From Metapseudomonas otitidis (GTDB lineage: Bacteria > Pseudomonadota > Gammaproteobacteria > Pseudomonadales > Pseudomonadaceae): a stretch of DNA of 64,000 nucleotides. The translations under genes were made by a program, and so were the position numbers. Each line of letters opens with the position of its first letter. Within the stretch, counting starts at the first letter, position 1. The notes under the pieces are model-generated. The model saw only the letters and a list, made by a program, of their open reading frames with translations, was not told where the DNA came from and did no database searches. Of this stretch, positions 25,973-44,177 are shown one piece after another. The DNA lies in assembly GCF_900111835.1 (NCBI RefSeq), contig NZ_FOJP01000014.1:124001-188000 (forward strand). Reading direction: 5' to 3'.

Positions 25973-26980
25973 TCAGACCTGCGGCAGGTGCTTGGTCACG
26001 CAGTGGATGCCGCCGCCCCCGGCAGCGATCGGGTCGATGTTCAACTGCTCCACCACCCGCCCCGGGTAGAGCCGGGTCAGCAGCGACTTGCAGTAGGCGT
26101 CCGCCGCCGCATCGCCGAACTGCGGGGCGATCACCGCGCCGTTGAGCAGCAGGAAGTTGATGTAGCCGGGGGCGAAGTCCGGGTTGCCCTGGGTGTACAC
26201 ATTGCTGCGCACCTTCAGCGGCGGCGGCAGCGTGTGCACCACCAGGCGACGGCCATCGGCGTCGGTGGCCGCCTTGAGGATCTCCAGGTGGCGGCGGGTC
26301 ACCGCGTAGTCGTAGGACTTGGGGTCGTTGTCCAGGTTGGCGATGACCACGCCCGGCTCCACGAAGCGCGCGTAGAAGTCCACGTGGGCGTCGGTGATGT
26401 CCTTGTCCTTGATGCCGGGCAGCCAGATGATCTTGCGCAGCCCGAGGTTGGCCTTCAGCTCCGCCTCGATCTGTGCCTTGCCCAGCCCCGGGTTGCGGTT
26501 GCCGTTGATCCAGCAGCTCTCGGTGAGGATCGCCGTGCCGGCGCCGTCCACTTCGATACCGCCGCCCTCGCCCACCAGCGCGCTGCGCAGGTAGTTGGCT
26601 TCCATCTCCTCGCTGAGGAGGTCGGCGACGCGGGTGTCGTTGCCGGCCGCCTGCTTGCGCCCCCAGCCGTTGAAGTTGAAGTCCACCAGCCCCAGGCCGC
26701 CGGGGCGGTGCAACACGGTGACCGGCTGGTACTTGGCAATGGTGCGGGCCAGCTTGCCCAGGGTGGCGTTCACCGCGCCGGCCCAGTCCTCCCAGATGGC
26801 GGAGGATGCGGCGTAGGCGATGATCACCCGCTCCTGGCGGTGGTGCTCGCCGGGCATGTACCAGCTGGCGGCCAGCGCCGCCGGCACCCGCGCCGCACCG
26901 AACCCCAGGCCCAGGGTGGCCGCGGCACCGAGCCCGCTGGCCACCATCATGTGTTTCATGAAATCGCGTCGTGTCGTCAT
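25973..26980 (-). CDS. Tat-exported agmatine/peptidylarginine deiminase family protein
   Basis: A 335-residue guanidino-group hydrolase of the PPAD/agmatine deiminase family. The N terminus TTRRDFMKHM is a twin-arginine signal, so the folded enzyme should be periplasmic. Catalytic positions are present: Glu/Asp in GGIEVDG, His in DAHVDFYARF and Cys in GGIHCVT near the C terminus. It would convert agmatine (or another guanidino compound) to a ureido product outside the cytoplasm. The ATG at 26980 was chosen because the Tat signal begins there. Last gene of a four-gene operon that also encodes a cytoplasmic agmatine deiminase, an odd duplication. Confidence 0.87.
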   Translation of the reverse strand: MTTRRDFMKHMMVASGLGAAATLGLGFGAARVPAALAASWYMPGEHHRQERVIIAYAASSAIWEDWAGAVNATLGKLARTIAKYQPVTVLHRPGGLGLVDFNFNGWGRKQAAGNDTRVADLLSEEMEANYLRSALVGEGGGIEVDGAGTAILTESCWINGNRNPGLGKAQIEAELKANLGLRKIIWLPGIKDKDITDAHVDFYARFVEPGVVIANLDNDPKSYDYAVTRRHLEILKAATDADGRRLVVHTLPPPLKVRSNVYTQGNPDFAPGYINFLLLNGAVIAPQFGDAAADAYCKSLLTRLYPGRVVEQLNIDPIAAGGGGIHCVTKHLPQV

Positions 26981-27005
26981 TGCACGTGCTCCGTTCAACA
27001 GGCGG

Positions 27006-28097
27006 TCACTGGGACCGGGCGGTCTTGAAGGTGGTCCAGGCACGCATCCGCGCGCGCATGTCCCGCTGGGGGATGTCCTTGCCGGGAATCAGCCGCTCGT
27101 AGGTGGCCGCGTCGACGTAGATGTCCGGGTTGTTGCGCATGTCCTCGGCCACCAGGGGCCGCGCCGCCGCGCTGGAGGTCGGGTAGCCGGTGGCGTTGCT
27201 GATGGCCGCCATGCGCTCGGGACGCATGAGGAAGTTGATCAGCGCGTAGGCGTACTCCGGGTGCACGGCGTCGGCGGGAATGGCCATGGTGTCCATCCAC
27301 ACCGTGGTGCCTTCGCGGGGCACCCGGTACTGGAAGCGCACGGCCTTGCCGGCTTCGTCGGCGCTGCGCTGGGCCTGGGTCATGTCGCCGCTGTAGCCGA
27401 GGGACAGGCAGATGTCACCGTTGACCAGCTGGGTGACCGGCTGCGACTGGAACTTGCGGATGTAGGGCTTGATGCCCTTGAGCAGCGCCACGGCCTCGGC
27501 CAGGTCCTCCGGCCGGGCGCTGCGCGGGTCATGCCCCAGGTAGTTGAGCACCACCGCCAGCACCTCGTCGGGGGAGTCGATGAGGGAGATGCCGCAATCG
27601 GCGAAGCGCGCGGCCAGCTCGGGCTTGAACAGCATGTCCAGGCTGTTGACCGGTGCACCGGGCAGGCGCGCGTCGATCTGCGCCTGGTTGTAGGTGAGGC
27701 CGATGGTGCCCCAGGTGTAGGGCACGGTGGCGTGGCGCGAGTATGGGTAGCGGGTCTGCAACGTCTTCAGGCCGGGCTCGATCTCGTCCAGGTGCTCCAG
27801 CCTGGCCGGGTCCAGCGGCTGCAGCGCACCGGCACGCATCAGCCGCTCGGCCACGGTGTCGCCGGGGAAGATCAGGTCGTAGCCGCTGTGGCCGGACATC
27901 ATCTTGGCTTCCAGCGTCTCGCTGCTGTCCATCACGTCGTAGATGACGCGGATGCCGGTCTCGCGGGTGAAGGCCTCCAGGGTGTCGGGGGCGAAGTAGT
28001 CCGCCCAGTTGTAGAGGCGCAGCAGCTTCTCCTCGGCGTGCGCGCTGCCCAGGCCGAGCCCGATGGCCAGGACCAGCAGGGATCTGCCCATGTTCAT
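27006..28097 (-). CDS. Polyamine-type periplasmic binding protein (SpuD/PotF family)
   Basis: A 363-residue ABC-type solute-binding protein. A signal peptide ends SAHA at about residue 21. The family start LRLYNWADYF and the ligand-pocket blocks (SSETLEAKMM, YDLIFPGD, WMDTMAIP) match putrescine/spermidine binders. No permease or ATPase gene is adjacent. GGAGG precedes the ATG, and its start overlaps the N-carbamoylputrescine amidase stop (ATGA). With a Tat-exported deiminase next to it, its ligand may be agmatine, N-carbamoylputrescine or putrescine. Confidence 0.9.
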   Translation of the reverse strand: MNMGRSLLVLAIGLGLGSAHAEEKLLRLYNWADYFAPDTLEAFTRETGIRVIYDVMDSSETLEAKMMSGHSGYDLIFPGDTVAERLMRAGALQPLDPARLEHLDEIEPGLKTLQTRYPYSRHATVPYTWGTIGLTYNQAQIDARLPGAPVNSLDMLFKPELAARFADCGISLIDSPDEVLAVVLNYLGHDPRSARPEDLAEAVALLKGIKPYIRKFQSQPVTQLVNGDICLSLGYSGDMTQAQRSADEAGKAVRFQYRVPREGTTVWMDTMAIPADAVHPEYAYALINFLMRPERMAAISNATGYPTSSAAARPLVAEDMRNNPDIYVDAATYERLIPGKDIPQRDMRARMRAWTTFKTARSQ

Positions 28098-29008
28098 CGG
28101 CCGGCCTCCGTGGGGTGCCAGTGGCAGTGGGTGTGACGCCCGTCCAGGCCCAGCAGCGGACGGTACATCTCCGGCCGGCGGTCGCGGTAGACGCCCCAGG
28201 TGAGGCGCTCCTCGGCCATGGCCGGGAGGTCCAGCGCCTGCACCCACACGCCTTCGGATTCACGGTCCGCCTCGGCCAGCAGGCGGCCCTTGTGGTCGGT
28301 GATGAAGGACGAGCCGTAGAACCGCATGCGCAGGTCGGCGTCGCTGCCGGCCACTTCCTCGCCGACGCGGTTGGCGGCGATCACCGGGAGGATGTTGGCG
28401 GCCGCGTGGCCACGCTGGGTCAGCTGCCAGTGGTCGCGGGAGTCCAGCCCGGCCGCCTCCGGCTCGGAGCCGATGGCCGTGGGGAACAGCAGCACCTCGG
28501 CGCCCATCAGCGCCAGGCAGCGCGCGGTCTCGGGGAACCACTGGTCCCAGCAGATGCCGGTGCCGATGCGCCCATGGGCGGTATCCCAGACGCGGAAGCC
28601 GGTGTCGCCGGGGCTGAAGTACTCCTTCTCCTGGTAGCCGATGGCGTTGGGGATATGGGTCTTGCGGTAGACGCCCAGCAGGCGGCCGTCGGCATCGGCC
28701 ACGCTGAGGGCGTTGAAGTAGGCGTTGCCGGCCCGCTCGAACCAGCTCAGCGGCAGCACCACGCCCAGCTCCCGGGCAAGATCGGCGAAGCGCGCGAGGA
28801 TCGGGCTGCGTCCGTATTCCTGGGCCAGGGCCAGGTGGCGGTGGTCCTGCTCGATGCAGAAGTACGGGGTGGCGAACAGCTCCTGCAGCAGGATCAGCCG
28901 GGCACCCTGGGCGGCCGCTTCGCGCACCAGCGCTTCGGCCCGGTCCAGGTTGCGCGCCAGGTCCCAGCTGCAGGCGAACTGGGTGGTGGCGACGGTGAGA
29001 AGGCTCAT
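28094..29008 (-). CDS. aguB: N-carbamoylputrescine amidase
   Basis: A 304-residue nitrilase-superfamily enzyme that hydrolyses N-carbamoylputrescine to putrescine, CO2 and ammonia, the second step of the agmatine deiminase pathway. The Glu-Lys-Cys triad is visible in LLQELFATPYF, YRKTHIP and TGICWDQWFPE. Length and motifs match AguB closely. GGAGGG precedes the ATG at 29008. The gene starts 4 bases after the agmatine deiminase stop and overlaps the binding-protein start by 4 bases, so the genes are translationally coupled. Confidence 0.93.
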   Translation of the reverse strand: MSLLTVATTQFACSWDLARNLDRAEALVREAAAQGARLILLQELFATPYFCIEQDHRHLALAQEYGRSPILARFADLARELGVVLPLSWFERAGNAYFNALSVADADGRLLGVYRKTHIPNAIGYQEKEYFSPGDTGFRVWDTAHGRIGTGICWDQWFPETARCLALMGAEVLLFPTAIGSEPEAAGLDSRDHWQLTQRGHAAANILPVIAANRVGEEVAGSDADLRMRFYGSSFITDHKGRLLAEADRESEGVWVQALDLPAMAEERLTWGVYRDRRPEMYRPLLGLDGRHTHCHWHPTEAGR

Positions 29009-29012
29009 CGGC

Positions 29013-30062
29013 TCAACCCTCCAGCGGCCAGGCCGGCTGCTGCTGGGTGATGCAGTGCACCCCGCCGCCGCCATGGGCCAGGTGGTTGATGCGCACCGGC
29101 ACCACTTCGCGGCCGGGGAACGCCAGGCGCAGCGTGGCAGCCGCTTCGTCGTCCGCAGCAATGCCGTAGGCCGGCATGATGATGGCGCCGTTGGCGATGT
29201 AGAAGTTGGTGTAGGAGGCGCAGAACACCTCGGCCTCGGTGTCCACCGCGTCGGTGGCCTCGAAAAGCTCCAGCATCTCGAAACGACGGCCCCGGGCATC
29301 GGTGGCCAGCTCCAGTGCACGGCGGTTCTCCCGCACCACGTCGGCGTACACCGAGCCGCTGTCGCGGGTGGCGTCCACCAGCAGCGCGCCGGGCCTGGCG
29401 AAGGCACAGACGCCGTCCACGTGGCCGTCGGTCATGTCGCCGGTGACGTGGTCCGGGTCGCCCGGCAGCCAGATGGTCTTGCGCACCCCCAGCAGGCGGG
29501 CGAACAGCGCCTCCATCTCGGCCTTGCTCACGCCGGGGTTGCGGTTGGCGTTGAGCAGCACCGACTCGGTGGTGATCAGCGTGCCCTGCCCGTCCACATG
29601 GATCGCACCGCCTTCGTTCACCAGCGGCGCATGGAGGCAGTACAGGCCCAGGTCCGCCAGGATGCGCGCCCCCAGGGTGGCGTCCAGGCCGTGGGCCGAC
29701 TTGCCGCCCCAGGCATTGAAGCGCCAGCTGACGCCGGCGGCGCCCAGGCGCGGGTGCAGCACGAAGCTCGGGCCGGAATCGCGGCACCAGCTGTCGTCGA
29801 TGGCCATCACCACCAGCTCCACATTCGGCCCGCACAAGGCCCGCGCCCGCTCCACGGCGGACGGGTCCACCACCAGCTTCACCGGTTCGAAGCGGGCAAT
29901 GGCGTTGGCCACCCGGGCGAAGTCGCCCTGGACGTCCGCCAGGGTCACGCCCCAGCCGTGCTCCCAGAGCGCCTGGTTGTGGGGAAACGCCATCCAGGTG
30001 GCGGCGTGGGGCGCCCATTCCGCCGGCATGAACCAGCCGTCACGTGCATCGTCGATTTGCAT
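29013..30062 (-). CDS. aguA: Agmatine deiminase (cytoplasmic)
   Basis: A 349-residue enzyme converting agmatine to N-carbamoylputrescine and ammonia. It has WCRDSGPSF, NEGGAIHVDG, DGHVDGVC and the C-terminal GGGGVHCITQQ with the nucleophilic Cys. There is no signal peptide, unlike the second copy at 25973. First gene of the minus-strand operon, 134 bp from a divergent LysR gene. GAAGG lies upstream of the ATG at 30062. In P. aeruginosa aguBA is governed by a TetR protein (AguR); here a LysR protein sits in that place. Confidence 0.92.
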   Translation of the reverse strand: MQIDDARDGWFMPAEWAPHAATWMAFPHNQALWEHGWGVTLADVQGDFARVANAIARFEPVKLVVDPSAVERARALCGPNVELVVMAIDDSWCRDSGPSFVLHPRLGAAGVSWRFNAWGGKSAHGLDATLGARILADLGLYCLHAPLVNEGGAIHVDGQGTLITTESVLLNANRNPGVSKAEMEALFARLLGVRKTIWLPGDPDHVTGDMTDGHVDGVCAFARPGALLVDATRDSGSVYADVVRENRRALELATDARGRRFEMLELFEATDAVDTEAEVFCASYTNFYIANGAIIMPAYGIAADDEAAATLRLAFPGREVVPVRINHLAHGGGGVHCITQQQPAWPLEG

Positions 30063-30117: not shown

Positions 30118-30196
30118 GGGCTGCATGCTAGGCCCGATGATTCGGGCCAACAAACGATGCTTTTTCCGTATTTCTGATTAGACAGGCTTATCAATC

Positions 30197-31072
30197 ATGC
30201 TCAAGCACTGGCCTCCCCTGAACGCCCTGCGGGGTTTCGAAGCCGCCGCACGGCTGGGCAGCTTCCACAAGGCGGCGGATGAGTTGCACCTGACCCAGTC
30301 GGCCATCAGCCAGCAGATCCGCAGCCTGGAAAGCTACCTGGAGCAGCCGCTGTTCTTCCGCAACGGGCGCAGCGTGGCCCTCACCGACGCCGGCCTGGAC
30401 CTGCTCAGCACCACCCAGTCGATGCTTCAGCAACTGGCCGTGGGCATCCGCCGACTGGACCAGTACCGCAAGCCCAACCAGCTGGTGGTGAACACCACGC
30501 CGGCCTTCGCCCGCCATTGGCTGGTACCGAACCTGGCGGACTTCCACCGGCACCACCCCGAGGTGGACCTCTGGCTGCTGACCACCGACGAAACCCCGAA
30601 CATGGCCACCCAGACCATCGACATCGCCGTGCGCGACGACCTCAGCGCCCAGGCCGAGTGCAGCTTCCGCGTACTGCTGGAAGACCGCTTGCAGCCGGCC
30701 TGCCACCCGGAGCTGCTGGCCACGCCCAGTGCAGCACGCACCACCCTGCACGGCGAACGGGAAATGGATTGGAGTCACTGGCAGGTACAAGGCGGTGAGG
30801 ATGTGGGGCAACAGAGCCAGGGCCTGAACTTCTCCGACCCTGGCCTGCTGCTGGACGCGGCCAGCCAGGGCCTGGGCATTGCCCTGGTGAGCCGGCTGCT
30901 GTCGGCCCGGGTGCGCGAACAGGGCCTGCTGGTGGCGCTGTCGGCGCGTGAGGTCCGCGGCCCGAACTGGAGCTGGCTGGTGCACCGCGACAGCGAGGGC
31001 GATGCCCTCACCCGCAGCTTCTGCGACTGGCTGCTGGCGCGCCTGGAGGCAGCGGCCGGCGTCGCGGATTGA
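30197..31072 (+). CDS. LysR family regulator, likely of the agmatine operon
   Basis: A 291-residue regulator of the GcvA/AmpR-like group. Winged helix at residues about 6-65 (GSFHKAADELHLTQSAISQQ) and a type 2 periplasmic-binding-like effector domain after residue 90. It is divergent from the agmatine operon with dyads in between, so it is the natural candidate activator, perhaps sensing agmatine or N-carbamoylputrescine. It converges with a lipoprotein gene behind a shared hairpin. Confidence 0.9.
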   Translation: MLKHWPPLNALRGFEAAARLGSFHKAADELHLTQSAISQQIRSLESYLEQPLFFRNGRSVALTDAGLDLLSTTQSMLQQLAVGIRRLDQYRKPNQLVVNTTPAFARHWLVPNLADFHRHHPEVDLWLLTTDETPNMATQTIDIAVRDDLSAQAECSFRVLLEDRLQPACHPELLATPSAARTTLHGEREMDWSHWQVQGGEDVGQQSQGLNFSDPGLLLDAASQGLGIALVSRLLSARVREQGLLVALSAREVRGPNWSWLVHRDSEGDALTRSFCDWLLARLEAAAGVAD

Positions 31073-33397: not shown

Positions 33398-35185
33398 TCA
33401 GAGGTCGATGCTGGAGATGGCCCAGTCGATGCCCTTGAAATCGGGCATCTCGCGGCCGTCGTCGGCGCCGAATTCGGCCGCCATCACGGTGTTGAGCTTG
33501 GCGTTGAGCGACATCAGCAGTGCGCTGTCCGCCGAGGCGGCGAGGTTGGTCTTCTCCAGCGGGTCGGCCGCGAGGTCGAACAGCTCCAGCTCGTTCCAGC
33601 GCCGCAAGGCCTCCAGGGTGGTGGGCGTGTTGCGCTCCACCGGCGCGAAGTAGCGGGTGAACTTGTGGCGCCCGTCGAACACCGTGCGCAGGCTGCCGCG
33701 CTTCTTCATGTCGGGGCGGTAGCCGGCCTCCTGCATCGCCACGTTGGGCGGCACGCCCCGTGTGCGCCCCTCGGAGACGATGCGGATCAGCTCGCTGTCG
33801 TTGGTGGCGATGCCGCTGTAGGTGAAGAGGATCTGTTCGCGCACGGTGTGCAGCCCGCTCGCCTGGACGTTGTTCAGCGCGCGGGAAATGTCGCGCCCCG
33901 GCAGGTCGCGACCGGCGACGTCGGCCACCTTGCCCGCCTCGACCCCACACAGTGAGAGCACCGAAGGCACCAGGTCGAGGTGGCTGGTCAGCGACAGGCA
34001 GCGCTGCCCGCCCCGCACATCCGGGTGGCGGACGATCATCGGGACGTGGACGGACTCCTCGTAGGCGAACGGGCCCTTTCCACGCAGGCCGTGGGCGCCG
34101 CCCATTTCGCCGTGGTCGGAGGTGAAGATGACGAGGGTGTTCTGGTCCAGGCCCAACTGGTCCAGCTCGTCGAGCAGGCGGTTGAGCTGGCTGTCCACCG
34201 ACACCAGGGAGTTGTAGTAGAAGTCGTTGAAGCGCCGCCAGCGGGCGTCCTCGTTGGGGATGTGGCCCAGGGTGTAGCCCCAGGCGCGGTCGAACTCGCC
34301 ATGGGCCTTGGGCCGGCCGGCCTCGGTCAGGCTCTGGTAGCGGGTGGCGGCCAGCGGCAGGGACCAGCGCTTCTCGTATGCCGGGTGCTTCGGGGCGCGG
34401 GCCGCCGGCATCAACAGCTTGCCGTTGTCCTGCACCTGCTCGGCGCCGTGGTCGGTGTTGAAGTACATGATGTCGTGGGGGTTCACCAGGCTGACGAACA
34501 GCGACCAGGGCTTGCCCTCGTCGGCCAGCGCCTTGCCGGTGCCACGCAGCCAGGAGATGGCGCTGCCGGCGATCATGTGGTCGTTCTGGTAGCCGCCCAG
34601 GGTGTGAGTGAGCACGTCGCCGGGCCAGGCGTAGTCGGAGAAGCCGTAGGCATCCATCTCGGGGGTGAACAGGCGCTCCGGGGTCTCCGGGTCGAAGGCG
34701 GAATTGAGGTGCCACTTGCCTTTGTAGGCCGTGTAGTAGCCGTGCTTGCGCAGCATGTGGCCGATGGTCGGGATGTCGGTGGAGAGCGACTTCACGTAGG
34801 GCATGTCGACGTTCTCGAACATGCCGTTGTCGGCGGTCTGCAGGCCGGTCATCAGCACCGCGCGCGAGCTGGTGCACATCACCGCCGAGCTGTAGTGGTT
34901 GTGGAAGGTGGTGCCGCTGTCCATCAGGCGCTGATGGCCGCTGAGGGCCAGGTCTTCATGCAGCGTGCGGGAGAAGCGCTCCTGGTCGGTGAAGATGAAC
35001 AGCACGTTCGGGCTACCGGCACGCTTGCCCAGCGCTGCCGCCTTCGCGCCAGGCGCTGGGGTGCTGGCGGCCTGTGCCGCGTTGGGCAGCACCGAGGCTG
35101 CCAGGGTCACCCCCGCCATGCCCAGGAACAGCCGCCGGGAAACACCACCCTCCTCCTGCTCCTCGTCTTGCTTGTCGATCGCCAC
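33398..35185 (-). CDS. Exported sulfatase
   Basis: A 595-residue sulfatase-family hydrolase. A twin-arginine-like signal (SRRLFLGMAG, residues 16-25) directs it to the periplasm. The modification site CTSSR starts at Cys104, fitting C-x-S-x-R rather than the commoner C-x-P-S-R; conversion to formylglycine needs a maturase not present in this window. Metal ligands are suggested by FIFTDQE, KGKWHL and SDHGEMGG. I chose GTG at 35185 because AGGAGA lies 8 bases before it; the TTG at 35203 contains that ribosome site. Operon with the outer-membrane protein and TetR genes. Substrate unknown. Confidence 0.85.
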   Translation of the reverse strand: MAIDKQDEEQEEGGVSRRLFLGMAGVTLAASVLPNAAQAASTPAPGAKAAALGKRAGSPNVLFIFTDQERFSRTLHEDLALSGHQRLMDSGTTFHNHYSSAVMCTSSRAVLMTGLQTADNGMFENVDMPYVKSLSTDIPTIGHMLRKHGYYTAYKGKWHLNSAFDPETPERLFTPEMDAYGFSDYAWPGDVLTHTLGGYQNDHMIAGSAISWLRGTGKALADEGKPWSLFVSLVNPHDIMYFNTDHGAEQVQDNGKLLMPAARAPKHPAYEKRWSLPLAATRYQSLTEAGRPKAHGEFDRAWGYTLGHIPNEDARWRRFNDFYYNSLVSVDSQLNRLLDELDQLGLDQNTLVIFTSDHGEMGGAHGLRGKGPFAYEESVHVPMIVRHPDVRGGQRCLSLTSHLDLVPSVLSLCGVEAGKVADVAGRDLPGRDISRALNNVQASGLHTVREQILFTYSGIATNDSELIRIVSEGRTRGVPPNVAMQEAGYRPDMKKRGSLRTVFDGRHKFTRYFAPVERNTPTTLEALRRWNELELFDLAADPLEKTNLAASADSALLMSLNAKLNTVMAAEFGADDGREMPDFKGIDWAISSIDL

Positions 35186-35566
35186 GATTCTTCTCCTAGC
35201 CAACCGGTTAATGTCCGACGTCGATTTACGCGCCGAACTGTACGAATTGTCATTTTGGAGTTTTAGTTCACTTCAAGAATCGAGCAATCCCTCCTGGCCC
35301 TCGTCATACGGTTGTTTGACGCTTTTCCAAGGCATCGGAAAGCAGGTGCCAAGTCCGCGTTCTGATTGAAAAAAAGTGTAGGAAGCCCTCTGCCAACTGG
35401 TAGCACCTTGATGGCGAAAGACCCGACAATCGGTAGAAAATAGGAGATGAACGGTAGGAACTTTCTCAACGCGCAGCAGGCGAGCCATTGCTCGCCGGGG
35501 CATGCACACGTTGCCGATGATCGCCCGCCTGAAGCGAAGCCCCAGCCCGAAGGCCAGGGCGCGCGG
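35186..35566 (-). other. Non-coding AT-rich region upstream of the sulfatase operon
   Basis: 381 bases with markedly lower GC than the surroundings. No ORF here shows Pseudomonas codon bias. On the minus strand ATGACA (35253-35248) and GTAAAT (35229-35224) with 18-base spacing could be a promoter for the sulfatase gene. The palindrome AACCGGTT (35202-35209) lies between it and the start and is a possible TetR site. The right part should hold the end of the acd transcript, but no clear terminator is seen. Confidence 0.45.
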
Positions 35567-37276
35567 TCAAGCGAGGGCCAGGCGCAACCGGTAGTGCGCC
35601 TCGGGGAACAGGCGGCGGAAGAAGAAGCGCGCGGTGGCTTCCCGCGCTGTCCCGAGGCTGCGCTCGCGGCTGACCCGTGCGGCACGCAGCCAGGCATGGC
35701 CCAGCAGCAGCAAGGCGGTCACCTGCAGCAGGTCGGTGGCGGCCTCGTAGGGGCGTTGCGGCTCGCTCGCCTGGACCTCGCGCAACGTGGCCAGCGCGGC
35801 CTGCCAGTCGGCCATCAGCTGTGCCACCGCCATCCCTTCATCGTGCAGGGCGGTGCCTTCGGCCCGCTGGCACTCTGCGTCGATACAGGTCACCAGCGCG
35901 GCCAGGCCTGGCGCATCGTCCGGCAGCAGCTTGCGCAGCAGCAGGTCGTTGGCCTGGATCTCGTTGGTGCCCTCGTAGATCAGCGCGATGCGACTGTCCC
36001 GCAGGGTCTGCTCGATGGGGTATTCGGTGCAGTAGCCGTAGCCGCCGAACACCTGCAGCGCCTGGCTGGCGAGCTGGAAGCCCTGCTCGGTGAACCAGGC
36101 CTTGACCACCGGCGTCAGCAGGGATGCCAGGGCGTGGGCCTCCGCTCGGCGGGAGGCCTCCGGCGCCTGCTCGGCGATGTCCAGCAGGTGTGCCGCCCAG
36201 TAGCCCAGCATGCGCATGCCCTGGCTGTGCGCCTCCAGGGTCCGGAGGATGCGCTGCATGGCCGGGTGTGCGGCAATGGGATCGGCCTCGCCGCTGGCTC
36301 CGGGCGGGCGCGGCACCGCGCGCATCTGCCGGCGTTCGGCGGCATAGGCGCCGGCCTGCTGGCGGGCGAACTCGGCATGCCCGAGCCCCTGCAAGCCCAC
36401 GTGCAGCCGCGCGCCATTCATCATCACGAACATCGCCGCCAGCCCCTGGTTCGGCTCGCCCAGCAACCACCCCTTGGCACCGTCGAAACGCAGGCTGCAG
36501 GTGGCGCTGCCACGGATGCCGAGCTTGTGTTCGAGGCCATCGCAGCACACGCCATTGGCCTGCCCGTCCAGCTCCCGGGGCACCAGGAACAGCGAGATGC
36601 CACGGGTGCCGGCGGGCGCATCGGGCAGGCGCGCCAGCACCAGGTGGAGGATGGCGTCGCCCAGGTCGTGATCGCCCCCGGAAATGAACAGCTTGCTGCC
36701 ATGCAGGCGGTAGCTGCCCGCCTCCGCCGGTTCGGCACGGCAATGCAGCAGCCCCACGTCGCTGCCGGCCTGGGGCTCGGTGAGGCACATGGTGGGCACG
36801 CAACGGCCGCTCACCAGGGCCGGCAGCCAGGCAGCCTGGAGTTCCGCGCTGGCGAAGCGCCGCAGCACTTCGTAGGCGCCGTGGGCGATGCCCGGGTACA
36901 TCGCCCAGGCATGGTTGGTGGCGTAGAGCATCTCCAGCAGGCCGACATTGAGCAGCTGCGGCAGGCCCTGCCCGCCCCATTCCGGGTCGCAGGCGAGCGA
37001 TGGCCAGCCGCCCTCGACGAAGGCGCGGTAGGCGTCGGCGAAGCCGTCCGGGGTGAGCACCCGGCCGTTCTCCAGCCGGCATCCCTGACGATCGCCGGGG
37101 GTGTTCAGCGGTGCCAGGCGGTCCTCGGCGAAGCGCGCGGCCTGCTCCAGCACCTGGGCGGCCAGGGCATGGTCCAGCTCGGCGAAGGCCGGCAGCCGTG
37201 CCCAGTCCTGTTCGGCGTCCAGCCAGTGTTCGATGACGAATTGCATGTCATCCAGCGGGGCACGGTAGTGCGTCAT
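35567..37276 (-). CDS. acd: Acyl-CoA dehydrogenase of the ferulate operon
   Basis: A 569-residue FAD enzyme of the long acyl-CoA dehydrogenase type (with the extended C-terminal domain seen in DmdC-like members). The catalytic Glu lies in ALIYEGTNEIQ, and the FAD-binding block is CLTEPQAGSD. It is last in the ech-vdh-fcs-aat-acd order, as in P. putida, where acd and aat were proposed to serve a beta-oxidative alternative route for feruloyl-CoA but are not needed for the main one. AAGGA precedes the ATG at 37276. Confidence 0.9.
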   Translation of the reverse strand: MTHYRAPLDDMQFVIEHWLDAEQDWARLPAFAELDHALAAQVLEQAARFAEDRLAPLNTPGDRQGCRLENGRVLTPDGFADAYRAFVEGGWPSLACDPEWGGQGLPQLLNVGLLEMLYATNHAWAMYPGIAHGAYEVLRRFASAELQAAWLPALVSGRCVPTMCLTEPQAGSDVGLLHCRAEPAEAGSYRLHGSKLFISGGDHDLGDAILHLVLARLPDAPAGTRGISLFLVPRELDGQANGVCCDGLEHKLGIRGSATCSLRFDGAKGWLLGEPNQGLAAMFVMMNGARLHVGLQGLGHAEFARQQAGAYAAERRQMRAVPRPPGASGEADPIAAHPAMQRILRTLEAHSQGMRMLGYWAAHLLDIAEQAPEASRRAEAHALASLLTPVVKAWFTEQGFQLASQALQVFGGYGYCTEYPIEQTLRDSRIALIYEGTNEIQANDLLLRKLLPDDAPGLAALVTCIDAECQRAEGTALHDEGMAVAQLMADWQAALATLREVQASEPQRPYEAATDLLQVTALLLLGHAWLRAARVSRERSLGTAREATARFFFRRLFPEAHYRLRLALA

Positions 37277-37287
37277 GGGCGAATCCT

Positions 37288-38520
37288 TCAGCGAGGGGCG
37301 GGGTTTTCCAGCAGCAGGGCCATGCCCTGTCCGCCGCCGATGCAGGCGGCGGCGATGCCGTAGCGGGTACCGCGCACGGCCAGTTGGCGGGCGACGCTGT
37401 GGGCCAGGCGCAGGCCGGTGGCGGCCAGGGGGTGCCCCAGGGCGATGGCGCCGCCGTGGCGGTTGAGGCGCTCCGGGTCCAGCTCCAGCTCGCGCTGCAC
37501 GGCCAGCACCTGGGCGCCCTGGGCTTCATTGATCTCCAGGCTGTCGATGGCGTCCAGCGTCAGGCCGGCCCCCTCCAGCAGCAGGCGGATGGCCGGCGCC
37601 GGGCCGATGCCCATGATCTCCGGCGGCACCCCGACCACGGCGCTGGCCCGCAGCAACGCCAATGGCGCCTTGGCACCCCGGGCGTCGCCCACCAGCATGG
37701 CGGCGGCACCGTCCACCAGGGCACAGCTGTTGCCGGCGGTCTGTACCGATCCGGGGCTGACCGGAGAAAGGGCCGCGAGGGCGTCCAGGCTGGTCTCGCG
37801 GGGGTGGCTGTCGTGACTGAGCCGGGTGACCTTGCGCGGCAGGTCCAGAGCACGGGGTTGATAGCCCGGCAGCTCGAAACGGGCACGCTCGACGGGGGCT
37901 ATCTCGGCGTCGAACCAGCCGCTTGCCTGGGCCGCCAGGGCCTTGCGGAAGCTGCCGAGGGCGAAGGCGTCCACCTCTTCGCGGCGCAGGCCGTAGCGTT
38001 GGGCGAGGTTCTGCGCGGTGTCGATCATGGTCTGGCCGATGGCCGGGTCCAGCAGCGCTTCCCAGAGGAAATCCCTGAAGCCCACCGGTGCGCCGAGGCG
38101 GAAGCCGCCCCGGTGCTCGTAGCTGGCAATCGGGTTGCGCGACATGGACTCGGTGGCCACGCACAGCGCCAGGCGTGCGCTGTCGCGCTCCAGCTGGTTG
38201 CCGGCCTGGCGCAGCAGCTCCAGGCCGGTCCCGCAGATCCGCTGCACCGCCAAGGCCGGCACCTCCAACGGCACGCCGGCATAGAGCCCGATGTGCCGGG
38301 GCAGCATGTAGGCGTCGAAGCTGGCCTGGGCCATGCTGCCGGCCAGCACGCTGTCCACCTGCCCGCCCGCCACGCCGGCCCGCGCCAACACGGCACGGGC
38401 GACGTGGATGCCGAGGTCGATGGGCGAAACCTGGGCCAGCGGGCCGCAGTAGTCGACCCAGGGCGTGCGGGCGCCGGCCAGCAGCGCCACTTCGCGGAAC
38501 AGCTCGAACTGGCCTTTCAT
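37288..38520 (-). CDS. aat: Thiolase (acetyl-CoA acetyltransferase family)
   Basis: A 410-residue thiolase. Active residues are Cys in QRICGTGLEL, His in GGAIALGHPLAATG and Cys in AACIGGGQGMAL, so it should be catalytic. Its start ATG at 38520 overlaps the fcs stop by 4 bases (ATGA), giving coupled translation. It ends 11 bases before acd. In P. putida the matching gene is named aat and is dispensable for ferulate growth; here it may handle short CoA esters from phenylpropanoid side chains. Confidence 0.92.
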   Translation of the reverse strand: MKGQFELFREVALLAGARTPWVDYCGPLAQVSPIDLGIHVARAVLARAGVAGGQVDSVLAGSMAQASFDAYMLPRHIGLYAGVPLEVPALAVQRICGTGLELLRQAGNQLERDSARLALCVATESMSRNPIASYEHRGGFRLGAPVGFRDFLWEALLDPAIGQTMIDTAQNLAQRYGLRREEVDAFALGSFRKALAAQASGWFDAEIAPVERARFELPGYQPRALDLPRKVTRLSHDSHPRETSLDALAALSPVSPGSVQTAGNSCALVDGAAAMLVGDARGAKAPLALLRASAVVGVPPEIMGIGPAPAIRLLLEGAGLTLDAIDSLEINEAQGAQVLAVQRELELDPERLNRHGGAIALGHPLAATGLRLAHSVARQLAVRGTRYGIAAACIGGGQGMALLLENPAPR

Positions 38521-40385
38521 GCGCCCGCCTCCGCCAGCACGCAGTGGCGCGCGGGATCGTCGTAGAGCCGGTCGATCAGCTCGGCGCGGCGGCCGAGCAC
38601 GGCCCGCTGGTTGAGCGAGCCCTTGTCGGTGATCTCCCCGGCATCCAGGCTCGGCGGCTCCACCATCGGGCAGGCCCAGGCGATGTGCGACGCCAGGCCG
38701 GTGGCCTCGCGGTTGAGGGTGGCCAGCAAGCCGGCCAGCCAGGTTTTCAGCGCGGGCGCGGCCAGCACCGCCTCGACGCTGGCCTCGGGCCCGAGCCCGG
38801 CCAGTTCGCGGCAGGCCGGCAGGTTGGGGAACACCAGCAGGCCGATGCGCTGGCGGTCCGGCCCGGTGACCACCACGTCCTGCACGTAGGGCGCGCCCTG
38901 TAGGATGACGCGGGTGCGTAGCGGCCCGACGCTGACGAAAACGCCGGTACTGAGCTTGAAGTCCTCGGCGATGCGGCCATCGAACATCAGCCCCCACTCC
39001 GGTCGCTCGGCGTCGGCGAAGCGCAGGGCATCGCCGGAGCGGTAGAAGCCTTCCTCGTCGAAGGCCTCTTGGTTCAGTTCGTCCTGGCGCCAGTAGCCGG
39101 GCATCACGTGGGGGCCACGGAAGCGTGCCTCCAGCTTGCCGTCCACCGGCGCCAGCTTCACTTCGCAGCCCGGCGCCGGCAGGCCGACGTAGCCGGCCAG
39201 GGACAGCGGCCCGGTGGTGAAGGTGCAGGACGGGGCGGTCTCGGTCATGCCCAGGCCGGCCATCATGCGGATGCGCTCGCCGCAGTGCTGCTCGGCGATG
39301 CGGTCCAGGCGGTTCCACACCGGCTGGCTGAGGCCGGCGCCAGCGAAGAAGAACAGCGTGATGCGGGCGAAGAAGCGTTCGCGCAGCTCGGCGTCCCGCT
39401 CCAGGGCCTCCACCAGCTCTTCCCAGCCCTTGGGCACGGTGAGGTAGGCGGTGGGGGAGATTTCCCGCAGGTTGCGCAGGGTCTCGCCGAACAGCTGGGG
39501 CGTCGGGCGGCCGTCGTCCAGGTACAGGCTGCCGCCGTTGTAGAGGACGATGCCGACGTTGTGGCTGCCGCCGAAGGTGTGGTTCCACGGCAGCCAGTCC
39601 ACCAGCACCGGCGGTGCCTCGCCGAACACCGGGAAGGTCTGCTGCAGCATCTGCTGGTTGGCGCAGAGCATGCGCTGGGTGGTGACCACGGCCTTGGGCA
39701 GCTTGGTGGAGCCGCTGGTGAAGAGGAACTTGGCGATGGTGTCGGGCCCGGTGCGGGCGAAGGCGGCGTCGGCAGCCGCCGGGTCGCGGGGGGCCAGCAA
39801 CGCATCGAAGCGCTGCTGCGGGCGCCCCGCCACGTCGCCCTGCACCAGCAGCAGGGGCACCTCGGTCGGTACTACCGCCTCGATGGCGCGGGCGAAGGCG
39901 TCGCCGTCCGCCGCCATCACCAGGCCGGGCTGCAGCAGGTCGACGATGTGCTGCAGCTTGGCGAAATCACGGGCCACCAGCGAATAGGCCGGCGACACCG
40001 GGCAGTACGGCACGCCGATGTAATAGGCCGCCAAGGCCAGCTGCAGGTGCTCCAGGTCGTTGCCGGAGAGGATCACCAGCGGCCGCGCCGGGCTCAGCCC
40101 GTAGTCCAGCAGGTGCGCGGCGATGCGGCGGATGCGCCCGAGCATGTCGCGGTAGCTGATGGCCTGCCAGGCGCCCTGGGCGTCGCGGCGGGCCACGAAG
40201 GTCTGCTCGCCACGCACTTCGGCCCAGTGCAGCAGGCGGTCCAGCAGGCGCCCGGGAAGCGGCTGCAGTACTTCACGGGGGTTGAGGTAGAGGTTGCCGG
40301 CGCGCGCCTCGATGCGCACGTCGGGCATGCCCAGGGACACCGGCCGGTAGCGGGCGGCGGGCTGGACGGAGGATTCATTGTTCAC
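38517..40385 (-). CDS. fcs: Feruloyl-CoA synthetase
   Basis: A 622-residue AMP-forming acyl-CoA ligase that activates ferulate (and p-coumarate or caffeate) with CoA and ATP. The P-loop-like FLFTSGSTKLPKAV and the core GLGMTETAPS are present. The start is GTG at 40385, with GGAGG 9 bases upstream; the frame also opens at a GTG 9 bases earlier, next to the ribosome site. The 79-base gap to vdh contains a strong hairpin. Identity is secured by its place between vdh and aat. Confidence 0.93.
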   Translation of the reverse strand: MNNESSVQPAARYRPVSLGMPDVRIEARAGNLYLNPREVLQPLPGRLLDRLLHWAEVRGEQTFVARRDAQGAWQAISYRDMLGRIRRIAAHLLDYGLSPARPLVILSGNDLEHLQLALAAYYIGVPYCPVSPAYSLVARDFAKLQHIVDLLQPGLVMAADGDAFARAIEAVVPTEVPLLLVQGDVAGRPQQRFDALLAPRDPAAADAAFARTGPDTIAKFLFTSGSTKLPKAVVTTQRMLCANQQMLQQTFPVFGEAPPVLVDWLPWNHTFGGSHNVGIVLYNGGSLYLDDGRPTPQLFGETLRNLREISPTAYLTVPKGWEELVEALERDAELRERFFARITLFFFAGAGLSQPVWNRLDRIAEQHCGERIRMMAGLGMTETAPSCTFTTGPLSLAGYVGLPAPGCEVKLAPVDGKLEARFRGPHVMPGYWRQDELNQEAFDEEGFYRSGDALRFADAERPEWGLMFDGRIAEDFKLSTGVFVSVGPLRTRVILQGAPYVQDVVVTGPDRQRIGLLVFPNLPACRELAGLGPEASVEAVLAAPALKTWLAGLLATLNREATGLASHIAWACPMVEPPSLDAGEITDKGSLNQRAVLGRRAELIDRLYDDPARHCVLAEAGA

Positions 40386-40399
40386 TGTTATCACCTCCG

Positions 40400-40424
40400 A
40401 CCGCGCCCGGACGGCGGGCGCGGT
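40400..40424 (-). terminator. Intra-operon hairpin between vdh and fcs
   Basis: ACCGCGCCC and GGGCGCGGT form a perfect 9-bp stem with a 7-base loop. No T-tract, so it may slow or process the mRNA rather than end it. It lies just upstream of the fcs ribosome site. Confidence 0.45.
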
Positions 40425-40464
40425 GCGATACCGGGCAGGGCCCGGCGTATTCAGTTCGTGCCGC

Positions 40465-41907
40465 TCAGATGGGGTAGTGGCGCGGGCCGTTCTGCACCGT
40501 CACCCAGCGCAACTGGGTGAACTGCTCGATGCTCGCGCTGGAACCGAAGCTGCCGTAGCCGCTGGACTTCACCCCGCCGAAGGGCATGGGCGCCTCGTCA
40601 TGCACGGTCGGGCCGTTGATGTGGCAGATGCCCGACTCCACGCGCTGGGCCAGCGCCAGGGCACGGGACACATCGCGGCTGAAGATCGCCGCCGACAGGC
40701 CGAACTCCGAGTCATTGGCCAGGCGCAGCAGCTCCTCGTCACCCTGCCCGCGCAGGATCACCGCCACCGGGCCGAAGGATTCCTCGCGGTACAGGCGCAT
40801 GGCCGGGGTGACCCGGTCCAGCAGCACCGGCTGCATCACGCTGCCGCTGCATTCACCACCGGCCAGCAGGACCGCGCCCTTGTCGAGGGCGTCCTGCACC
40901 AGGGCCATGATGCGTGCGCCCGCCTGGGCGTCGATCAGCGAGCCGAGTACCGCCTCGCCGGGCAAGCCGGCCTTGAGGGTGCCGACCTTGCTCGCCAGGC
41001 GCGCGGCGAAGTCGTCGGCAATGCGCGCGTCTACCACCAGCCGCTCGGTGGACATGCAGATCTGCCCCTGGTTGAAGTAGGCCCCGAAGGCCGAGGCGGC
41101 CACGGCCTGGTCCAGGTCCGCGTCGTCCAGCACCAGCAGCGGCGCCTTGCCGCCCAGCTCCAGCACCGCCGGTTTCAGGTGGCGCGCGGCGAGCTGGCCG
41201 ATGATGCGGCCGACATGGGTGGAGCCGGTGAAGTTGACGCGGCGCACCGCCGGGTTGGCCACCAGCCGCTCGACGATGGCGGCAGCGTCTGCCGGGGTAT
41301 TGCTGATGACGTTGACCACGCCATCGCCCAGGCCTGCCTGCTGCAGCACCTCGCCGATCAGCGCGTGCACCGCTGGGCTGTTCTCCGAGGCCTTGAGCAC
41401 CACGGTGTTGCCACAGGCCAGGGGCATGGCCAGGGCACGGGTGGCGAGGATGATCGGTGCATTCCAGGGCGCGATGCCCAGCACCACGCCGCAGGGCTGA
41501 CGCAGGGCCATGGCGAAGCTGCCGGGTACATCGGAAGGGATCACTTCGCCCTTGATCTGGGTGGTCATGCCGGCGGCATCGCGCAGCATGTTGGCGGCCA
41601 GCTTCACGTTGAAGCCGTACCAGTCGGCGGTGGCGCCGGTTTCCACGGCCATCGCCATGAAGCGCTCGCGGCTGGCCTCCAGCAGGCGGGCCGCCTCCAG
41701 CAGGCGCGCCCGGCGCTCGGCGGGACCGAGGGCGGCCCAGGCCGGGAAGGCGGCCTGGGCGGCGGCCACGGCGGCATCGGCGTCTTCCAGGGTGGCGGCG
41801 GCCACGCGGCTGACGACTTCACCGGTGAAGGGGCTGTGGCGCTCGAACACCGCGCCGGTGGCGGCAGGACGGGTACGGCCGGCGATCAGCAAAGGCACGT
41901 CGAACAT
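40465..41907 (-). CDS. vdh: Vanillin dehydrogenase
   Basis: A 480-residue NAD-dependent aldehyde dehydrogenase oxidising vanillin to vanillate (also 4-hydroxybenzaldehyde). The catalytic Cys is in NQGQICMSTER and the general base Glu in VLELGGKAP; the Rossmann block FTGSTHVG is intact. AGGAG lies before the ATG at 41907, preceded by a CA motif. It lies 75 bases after ech, with a small GCCTGG/CCAGGC hairpin at 41944-41959 in between. Confidence 0.94.
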   Translation of the reverse strand: MFDVPLLIAGRTRPAATGAVFERHSPFTGEVVSRVAAATLEDADAAVAAAQAAFPAWAALGPAERRARLLEAARLLEASRERFMAMAVETGATADWYGFNVKLAANMLRDAAGMTTQIKGEVIPSDVPGSFAMALRQPCGVVLGIAPWNAPIILATRALAMPLACGNTVVLKASENSPAVHALIGEVLQQAGLGDGVVNVISNTPADAAAIVERLVANPAVRRVNFTGSTHVGRIIGQLAARHLKPAVLELGGKAPLLVLDDADLDQAVAASAFGAYFNQGQICMSTERLVVDARIADDFAARLASKVGTLKAGLPGEAVLGSLIDAQAGARIMALVQDALDKGAVLLAGGECSGSVMQPVLLDRVTPAMRLYREESFGPVAVILRGQGDEELLRLANDSEFGLSAAIFSRDVSRALALAQRVESGICHINGPTVHDEAPMPFGGVKSSGYGSFGSSASIEQFTQLRWVTVQNGPRHYPI

Positions 41908-41917
41908 GATCTGCTCC

Positions 41918-41930
41918 TGTTGTGATTGTT
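41918..41930 (-). promoter_or_regulatory. CA motif (Crc/Hfq type) before vdh
   Basis: Minus strand AACAATCACAACA directly upstream of the AGGAG of vdh; an imperfect AAnAAnAA series. Confidence 0.5.
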
Positions 41931-41982
41931 CTGCGGGGACGGTGCCTGGCGAACCAGGCGAACGCCCCCGGAGCGCGCGCTG

Positions 41983-42813
41983 TCAGCGCTTGTAGGCTTG
42001 CAGGCCGGGCTTGATGCTCTTGTCGTCGAGGAACTGCTTCATGCCCTGCTCGCGGCCGCCTTCCTTGTCCAGCAGGCGGGACTGGTCGAGCTTGGCGTAG
42101 AGGTAGTCCTCGTTCTGCTCCCAGGTCAGCTCGCGGCAACGCTTGAAGCCATTCTTCGCGGCACGCATCACCACCGGGTTCTTGTCCAGCAGGTTGCGTG
42201 CCAGCTCGATGGTGGTCTCGCGCAGCTGGGCCAGCGGCACGCTCTCGTTCACCAGGCCCATCTCGGCGGCCTTGCGGCCATCGAAGGTCTTGCCGGTCAT
42301 GATGTAGTACAGCGACTGGCGGTGGCCCACGGTGTCGGCCATGGCCTTGCTCACCAGGTTGCCCGGGGGGATGCCCCAGTTGATCTCCGACAGGCCGAAG
42401 GTCGCCTCGTCGGCGCAGATGGCCAGGTCGCAGGCCACCAGCGGGCTGAAGCCACCGCCGAAGCACCAGCCGTTGACCATGGCGATGGTGGGCTTGGCGT
42501 ACATGCGCAGCAGCTTCCACTGCCATTGCGAGGCTTCGCGGCGGATCTTCTCCTGGAGGATCTCGGGGCCGGCGTCCACTTCGCGGAAGTATTCCTTCAG
42601 GTCCATGCCGGCCGTCCAGGACTCGCCCGCGCCGGTCAGCACCAGCACGCCCACGTCCGGGTCCTGCTCCAGGGTTTCGAGCACGTCGACCATCTCGCGG
42701 TTCAGCGTCGGGCTCATCGCGTTGCGCTTCTCGGGGCGGTTGAGGGTCACCCAGCCGATGCCCTCCTCCACGTCGACTTTCACGGTCTGCCAGCGGTTCT
42801 CGTAGTTGCTCAT
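41983..42813 (-). CDS. ech: Feruloyl-CoA hydratase/lyase
   Basis: A 276-residue crotonase-fold enzyme that hydrates feruloyl-CoA and splits it to vanillin and acetyl-CoA. Sequence blocks typical for this enzyme include AGMDLKEYF, NGWCFGGGFSPLV (oxyanion hole) and FGLSEINWGIPPG. First gene of the ferulate operon. A CA-like stretch and an AGG ribosome site precede the ATG at 42813. Upstream dyads at 42866-42900 mark the probable operator. Confidence 0.95.
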   Translation of the reverse strand: MSNYENRWQTVKVDVEEGIGWVTLNRPEKRNAMSPTLNREMVDVLETLEQDPDVGVLVLTGAGESWTAGMDLKEYFREVDAGPEILQEKIRREASQWQWKLLRMYAKPTIAMVNGWCFGGGFSPLVACDLAICADEATFGLSEINWGIPPGNLVSKAMADTVGHRQSLYYIMTGKTFDGRKAAEMGLVNESVPLAQLRETTIELARNLLDKNPVVMRAAKNGFKRCRELTWEQNEDYLYAKLDQSRLLDKEGGREQGMKQFLDDKSIKPGLQAYKR

Positions 42814-42827
42814 GTCGCGTACCTGCT

Positions 42828-42835
42828 CTTGTTTT
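42828..42835 (-). promoter_or_regulatory. CA motif (Crc/Hfq type) before ech
   Basis: Minus strand AAAACAAG, one mismatch from AAnAAnAA, 15 bases before the ech start. Confidence 0.45.
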
Positions 42836-42865
42836 GGAATGGCCTCAAGGTATGCCGGCCATTTA

Positions 42866-42900
42866 GTTATGTCAATTAACGATTAATTCGCACTGTGCGA
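42866..42900. promoter_or_regulatory. Operator-like dyads upstream of the ferulate operon
   Basis: Three dyads lie in tandem: GTTA-N7-TAAC (42866-42880), ATTAA-N3-TTAAT (42875-42887) and the perfect TCGCAC-T-GTGCGA (42888-42900). Ferulate operons in pseudomonads are often under MarR-type repressors (FerR); no marR gene is in this window, so the binding protein is unknown. Confidence 0.45.
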
Positions 42901-42974
42901 TCAGCGAACCAGAGCGGGTCGGCACCCGGCTACTGATTAGCCTGCGTAACCAAACCAGCCCAGAACACACGACT

Positions 42975-44177
42975 TCAGGCCGAAGCCAGCGGCCTTCCGG
43001 CACGGCTGCCAAGGGCCACCACCACCAGCGCCGCCACCAGCAGGCCGGGCGCTGCGGCCATCAGTACGCCGGCCGTGCCGGCGCCGGCGGCGAGGATCTG
43101 CCCGGCGGCCAGGGGCCCGCTGACCGAGCCCAGCCGGCCGACGGCCACCGCCGCCCCGACCCCGGTGGCCCGGACCTGGGTCGGGTAGTAGGCCGGCGCC
43201 AGGGCGTAGAGCACCAGCTGCGCAGCCATCACGAAGACACCCGCGGCGAAGCCTGCCGCCGCCATGCTCGCGACGCTGCCGGAGAAGCCGATGCCGGCCA
43301 GGGCCAGCAACAGGCCGGTGTAGATGGACAGCACCACCGGCGTGCGGCGGAAGCGGTCCAGCAGCACGCCGCCCATCAACGAGCCCAGGGCCCCGCCGAC
43401 GTTGAAGACCATCTGCACCATGCCCGCCTGGGGCTTGCTGAAGCCAAGCTCCAGCAGCAGCGAAGGCAGCCAGTTGAGCAGCATGTACATCACCGTGAGG
43501 GTGAAGAAGTAGCTGACCCAGAGGGACAGGGTGATGCGCGTGCGACCGTCGCCGCAGAGCGCTTCGACGGTGGACGGACGCACCGCGCCGCCCTGGTCGC
43601 GCTGCTGATGGAAGGCGGCGGACTCGGGCAGCATCAGCAGCATCAGCGGGGCGATGACCAGGGGCGCGACGCCCCCGACGATGAACACCCACTGCCAGGC
43701 TTCGCCGGCCAGCATGCCCACCAGGGCCGCAACCGCCCCGCCCAGGGGCACGCCGCAGTACATGATGCTGATGGCGGTGCTGCGCTGGCGCTCCTCTACG
43801 GCTTCGGCGCACAGCGCGATCAGGTTCGGCAGCGCCGCGCCCAGGCCCAGCCCGGTCAGGAAGCGCGCCGCCAGGAGTCCGGTCAGGCTGCCGGCGTAGG
43901 CGGTCCACAGGGAGAAGATGCCGAACAGCACCACCGCCGCCACCAGCACCTTCTTGCGGCCGATGCGGTCGGCGATGCAGCCACCGAGGAAGGCCCCGGG
44001 CAGCAGGCCGATGATGCTGGCGCTGAACATCCAGCCCATCATTTTCGGGTCCAGGTTGAAGGCGGCGCGGATGCCGGCAGCGGCGATGCCGGCGGATTGC
44101 AGGTCAAGCCCCTCGATCAGGGCGACGATGAAGCACAGCAGGATGGTCAGCCGCGAGCGGCCGGTAGTGGCGTGCAT
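42975..44177 (-). CDS. Aromatic-acid MFS transporter (AAHS family)
   Basis: A 400-residue, 12-helix proton symporter. The AAHS signature pieces are visible: the acidic LIEGLDLQ in helix 1, GGCIADRIGRKK in loop 2-3 and GALGSLMGGVLLDR in loop 8-9. Similar to PcaK, MhpT and the HcnK-type hydroxycinnamate carriers. GAGG precedes the ATG, with a CA motif upstream. It is transcribed in the same direction as ech with 161 bases between, and is divergent from an OprD porin: a matched outer/inner-membrane uptake pair, probably for ferulate and related acids. Confidence 0.9.
   Translation of the reverse strand: MHATTGRSRLTILLCFIVALIEGLDLQSAGIAAAGIRAAFNLDPKMMGWMFSASIIGLLPGAFLGGCIADRIGRKKVLVAAVVLFGIFSLWTAYAGSLTGLLAARFLTGLGLGAALPNLIALCAEAVEERQRSTAISIMYCGVPLGGAVAALVGMLAGEAWQWVFIVGGVAPLVIAPLMLLMLPESAAFHQQRDQGGAVRPSTVEALCGDGRTRITLSLWVSYFFTLTVMYMLLNWLPSLLLELGFSKPQAGMVQMVFNVGGALGSLMGGVLLDRFRRTPVVLSIYTGLLLALAGIGFSGSVASMAAAGFAAGVFVMAAQLVLYALAPAYYPTQVRATGVGAAVAVGRLGSVSGPLAAGQILAAGAGTAGVLMAAAPGLLVAALVVVALGSRAGRPLASA

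Follow-up and report, generated by a model that had tools for sequence, protein, structure and literature searches.

The closest described relative of the operon considered here is agu2ABCA' of Pseudomonas aeruginosa PA14, for which Williams et al. 2010 (Mol. Microbiol. 76:104) reportedly described two deiminases, a periplasmic Agu2A' and induction by agmatine, and reportedly attributed the biofilm effect to Agu2A' itself. Later papers state that P. aeruginosa has an alternate agmatine operon, detected by PCR in ~20% of isolates (PMC4287709), that this operon raises biofilm biomass with agmatine present (PMC4287709, PMC4211729), and that an agmatine response and a biofilm effect are reported for PA14 (PMC4211729). 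PA14_48450, which is Agu2A' with a mass of 40.5 kDa, is an experimentally identified Tat substrate, and its signal peptide has been published (PMC6085387). The canonical aguBA operon of P. aeruginosa provides the same two cytoplasmic reactions as those proposed for Agu2A and Agu2B, but differs from agu2ABCA' in having the order B-A and in lacking both an exported enzyme and a binder; its repressor, AguR, is a TetR-family protein (PMC4287709).

The agu2ABCA' operon of the window

The window, that is, the whole analysed stretch of 64,000 nucleotides from Metapseudomonas otitidis, contains four open frames on the minus strand, from 30062 to 25973, in the order agu2A, agu2B, agu2C, agu2A', and the following features:

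29013..30062, minus strand: agu2A, agmatine deiminase, 349 aa, complete, without signal peptide
28094..29008, minus strand: agu2B, N-carbamoylputrescine amidase, 304 aa, complete
27006..28097, minus strand: agu2C, SpuD/PotF-like polyamine-binding protein, 363 aa, with a signal peptide by reading
25973..26980, minus strand: agu2A', deiminase of 335 aa with a Tat signal, lacking 39 internal codons (in frame)
26701..26702, minus strand: deletion junction in agu2A', residues 93/94, a single 117-column gap in the DNA alignment against eight relatives
30149..30158, minus strand: second conserved block ATCGTTTGTT of the LysR-A intergenic region, 63-70/70 per base
30175..30193, minus strand: candidate LysR operator TGATAAG-N5-CTAATCA, a conserved imperfect inverted repeat in the same region
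30197..31072, plus strand: LysR-type regulator gene, 291 aa, divergent from agu2A

The frames are separated by 4 nt (agu2A/agu2B) and 25 nt (agu2C/agu2A'), and agu2B and agu2C overlap by 4 nt. Both deiminases match PF04371 in Pfam. Agu2A does so in one stretch (residues 12-343) and by reading contains DDSWCRDSG, DGHVD and GGGGVHC, so that the Asp of the W-x-R-D motif is kept there. Against the agmatine deiminase equivalog TIGR03380 (cut-off 381.8 bits), Agu2A scores 292.6 and Agu2A' 198.5 bits, both below the cut-off, and Agu2B scores above that of TIGR03381 (443.1 against 410.25 bits). Agu2C matches SBP_bac_8, is nearest to SpuD/SpuE/PotF (best PDB sequence 3ttm), and is a relative and not an equivalog of PotF, since it reaches 322 bits in the NCBIfam PotF model, whose cut-off is 636. 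By reading, the W-x-D-Y motif and acidic residues align within this one sequence family, but Agu2C differs from SpuD/SpuE/PotF at some of the pocket positions, and the agu2ABCA' operon has no ABC permease gene. For the regulator, the nearest NCBIfam model is GcvA, with a score below its cut-off. The preliminary description had placed two deiminases, an AguB and a SpuD-like binder in one operon with a LysR regulator; the frames and the family matches agree with this gene content and order, and the family search confirms the regulator.

In an alignment of 70 LysR-A intergenic regions, the window included, each base of GATAAG (30192-30187) is kept in 69-70 of the 70 regions and the bases of CTAATCA in 60-70, the leading T of TGATAAG being kept in 44; every base of the candidate operator except this first T and one A is thus found in at least 69/70. 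The conserved repeat would be a LysR site, and the divergent LysR probably controls the agu2ABCA' operon.

The window operon is agu2ABCA', already described from P. aeruginosa PA14, and is not new. As in PA14, two deiminases, an AguB and a polyamine binder lie in the same order, and the last gene carries a Tat signal. Matches to A' occur in 68 plasmid records, the strongest being in NZ_CP131792, an 847 kb plasmid from a blood isolate of P. aeruginosa. On it, LysR, A, B, C and A' are arranged as in the window (L169, 210042-223151), with LysR divergent in both. P. aeruginosa identities were measured on this plasmid copy: 81% for A, 78% for B and 82% for C, with A, B, C and LysR ranging over 78-82%, and 64% for A', whose alignment runs across the gap. 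The plasmid-borne A' contains the PA14_48450 signal peptide (33/33 letters, after one extra M) and has a mass of 40.5 kDa, as given for PA14 in PMC6085387; the window product has 36.0 kDa, and its 335 residues without the W-x-R-D unit compare with 373 in P. aeruginosa. NZ_CP131792 is typed as conjugative, so a mobile element can carry the agu2 operon. The novelty suggested in the preliminary description is therefore not upheld, the PA14 operon being known and its Agu2A' a listed Tat substrate (PMC6085387). Its statement that P. aeruginosa has neither the exported enzyme nor the binder holds for aguBA but not for the species, as PA14 and NZ_CP131792 demonstrate.

The 39-residue deletion in Agu2A'

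The N-terminus of the window Agu2A', MTTRRDFMKH, reads as a twin-arginine signal, and the motifs DAHVD and GGGGIHC are retained. We take these to be the active-site His and Cys motifs, presumably the counterparts of H236/D238 and C351 of PPAD, a correspondence made by family only. Compared with relatives, whose A' proteins mostly have ~374 residues, the 335-residue window protein is without 39 residues, and in the DNA alignment against eight relatives the window shows a single gap, exactly 117 nt long, between 26702 and 26701. The PF04371 match of Agu2A' (6.8e-84) falls into two parts, of which the main one covers residues 98-333, and it is split because the 39 codons present in the aligned relatives are missing. 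The W-x-R-D motif occurs in all 90 aligned relative rows (79 from named loci and 11 from genomes of the genus, with at least five genomes in both sets) and is absent only in the window Agu2A'. The 80th named locus, L053, was left out by a motif filter, and its match to the intact A' covers residues 1-374; L036 and L038 have two deiminases each, of which only the second entered the alignment. Eight of the 112 near-invariant A' columns lie inside the gap, and the window differs at one of the 104 others. A deletion common to a clade was considered, but the gap is absent from the 79 named loci aligned, out of the best 80 of 493, and from the 11 genus genomes.

In the AlphaFold model of the intact protein, the lost piece comprises a helix (93-103), a strand (108-112), a second helix (117-121) and a second strand (125-129); in the window model, pLDDT falls below 50 at residues 94-107, beside the cut. 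The ten best Foldseek matches have TMq values of 0.80-0.81 for the intact model and 0.75-0.80 for the window model, and agmatine deiminases are matched by fold with both. Since the window model keeps its match to the deiminase fold, the model alone is no proof that the protein cannot fold. Porphyromonas PPAD and the agmatine iminohydrolases, which share their sequence family and the PF04371 fold with Agu2A', have the substrate-Asp piece that the window protein is without. In PPAD, D130 is indispensable and the W127A variant is not produced (PMC4487231). The lost Trp and Asp are equated with W127 and D130 because the W-x-x-D spacing agrees and the proteins share family and fold, not by residue alignment.

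The remaining codons of agu2A' are under purifying selection, with window-branch dN/dS values of 0.34 and 0.25 in two sets of relatives. Relaxed selection, which would be a sign of a dead gene, differs with the relatives used: dN/dS on the window branch is 2.83x that of the rest of the tree with the first set (bootstrap 1.90-4.40) and 1.21x with the second (bootstrap 0.78-1.95). In the second-set test, the same-genome controls give 2.48x for agu2B, 2.62x for canonical aguB (168 codons only) and 1.67x for canonical aguA (bootstrap 0.79-3.36). Because control genes rise as much or more, any rise in dN/dS is not particular to agu2A'. From the conserved columns and the purifying selection, it would follow that the deletion is recent, unless some function of the protein is still maintained.

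Distribution and apparent erosion of the locus

Named relatives were found by similarity to A', and the best 80 of 493 were kept. LysR and A-B-C-A' are all present and in the same order in 68 of these 80 loci, and 68/80 have a LysR gene in a window-like position. Among the remaining 12 are contigs that are short or cut, a locus whose agu2B match is shortened, and loci from Dyella, Luteibacter, Massilia, Duganella and Pseudoduganella in which A' lacks the other four genes within the stretch examined. The second binder (see below) apart, 22 other window frames, some of them perhaps non-genes, gave no match at >40% identity and 60% coverage in the flanks (up to ~6 kb) of 87 related loci. As judged from these flanks, the five genes, LysR and A-B-C-A', probably behave as one unit inserted at different places. 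One record labelled Bacillus subtilis SK7B5 (L034) has a Pseudomonas-like LysR and Agu2A' without A, B and C, and is probably a contamination or a mislabelled assembly.

Some other loci of the window and its genome were also noted. A third agmatine deiminase of 369 aa, by reading without a signal peptide, is encoded at G000:C16:73398-74462 (L004 122-3388), with a LysR-like gene before it and a PotF-like binder after it (both by reading), making a second LysR-deiminase-binder set in this genome; the canonical aguB-aguA pair is also present (G000:C19). Within the window, the minus-strand frame 47624-48721 encodes a second PotF-like binder, with 40% identity to Agu2C; genes for a beta-lactamase-family serine hydrolase and an MFS transporter are close by. 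On the same strand, 35567-44177 is a likely hydroxycinnamate catabolism cluster with an acyl-CoA dehydrogenase, an AMP-binding enzyme, an aldehyde dehydrogenase, a p-hydroxycinnamoyl-CoA hydratase/lyase and an MhpT-like MFS transporter. A tie through feruloyl-agmatine between the operon and these genes (35-44 kb) is unsupported, the 22 unmatched frames of the flank comparison, a weak test given the short flanks, bearing on this as well. A sulfatase-family protein (33398-35203, minus strand) has an N-terminus, KQDEEQEEGGVSRRLFLGMAG, that is twin-arginine-like by reading.

Eighteen genomes of the genus were searched with the intact A'. The gene is whole in 11 of the 18, the window genome has the 39-codon deletion, four other species (G003, G008, G009 and G012) have only remnants, and G006 and G011 gave no A' match. 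The remnants take different forms. In G012 (L147 5065-5283), the Tat signal and residues 1-58 are joined in frame to residues 359-374, and beside this reduced gene A, B, C and LysR are matched over nearly their full length. In G008, a piece of C is fused to A' residues 304-374; in G003, only the C-terminal part of A' is left, adjoining the end of a LysR gene; and G009 has a weak A' fragment in two frames. Judging by these remnants, different deletions seem to have shortened agu2A' in several species of the genus. A separate change is seen in G014 (L149 5789-6879), where the agu2C match shifts frame midway and agu2A' is whole. In a literature search with most subscription papers outside it, no title among the 20 listed of 54 matching papers points to agu2A' loss.

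A shortened exported enzyme and its alternatives

We favour, at a probability of about 0.78, an agu2ABCA' operon in which Agu2A' is inactivated by its deletion and the cytoplasmic branch alone works. In intact copies, Agu2A' would be exported folded via Tat and would deiminate agmatine in the periplasm, where Agu2C would bind a polyamine, and in the cytoplasm Agu2A and Agu2B would convert agmatine to N-carbamoylputrescine and then to putrescine. In the window, the deletion would have taken a helix-strand-helix-strand unit with the guanidinium-binding Asp and a structural Trp, leaving an inactive and badly folded protein. Tat exports folded proteins, and poor folding of Agu2A' would therefore also hinder its export; Tat dependence is published for the PA14 protein, and the window copy may have lost export by this route. 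Only the cytoplasmic steps, with A, B and C presumably still functional, would be left working in the window strain. Taken from the alignment, the models and the analogy with PPAD, the window Agu2A' most likely neither binds agmatine nor folds well. Counting against inactivation are the single difference among 104 near-invariant columns, the purifying selection and the deiminase fold kept by the window model.

Three other explanations compete with inactivation by deletion. That the gap is an assembly or sequencing error, and that the organism has an intact agu2A', is improbable. The sequence is one draft assembly of 50 contigs and the remainder of the gene is well conserved, as such an error would allow, but the 117-nt gap preserves the reading frame, as one in three would by chance, the relatives have no direct repeats longer than 5 bp in register with the gap, and over the 12 bases to the left of the junction at least four mismatches separate the window from each of the eight relatives (TTGCACCGCCCC versus CTGTGCCGSGCC); these diverged bases speak against a collapsed assembly, which would not produce them. 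It is less probable still that, as the preliminary description proposed, the exported enzyme acts on agmatine or a conjugate in the periplasm and the binder takes the product. The window protein keeps the Tat signal, DAHVD and GGGGIHC, and its intact homologue is a known Tat substrate (PMC6085387), but it has lost the guanidinium-binding Asp together with the surrounding unit, and the equivalent single mutants of PPAD are inactive or not produced (PMC4487231). The exported deiminase has its Tat signal by reading but is not a whole enzyme, with 39 residues missing; conversion of agmatine before uptake is unlikely here given the loss of the Asp segment, and the window organism probably does not carry out the periplasmic step that was proposed.

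There is a similarly slight chance that the short Agu2A' is retained for a periplasmic role other than catalysis, such as holding agmatine or, as a pseudo-enzyme, sensing it with Agu2C. The window gene would then mark one stage of a course along which other species of the genus have gone further, losing more of agu2A'. The retained frame and Tat signal, the 103 of 104 unchanged near-invariant positions outside the gap and the purifying selection on the remaining codons are consistent with such a role, but the residues lost include the ligand-binding Asp, A' and the control genes are not set apart by the selection test, and the four other species, having lost more of the gene, retain mere remnants.

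With Agu2A' inactivated by deletion as the preferred reading, presence of the gene here does not imply periplasmic agmatine conversion. In an operon linked to biofilm in PA14, the exported enzyme is shortened in the window genome and reduced to a remnant in four other species of the genus, and in G012 the remnant persists while the cytoplasmic genes remain. With such natural agu2A' variants, the contribution of the exported enzyme to the operon could be studied.
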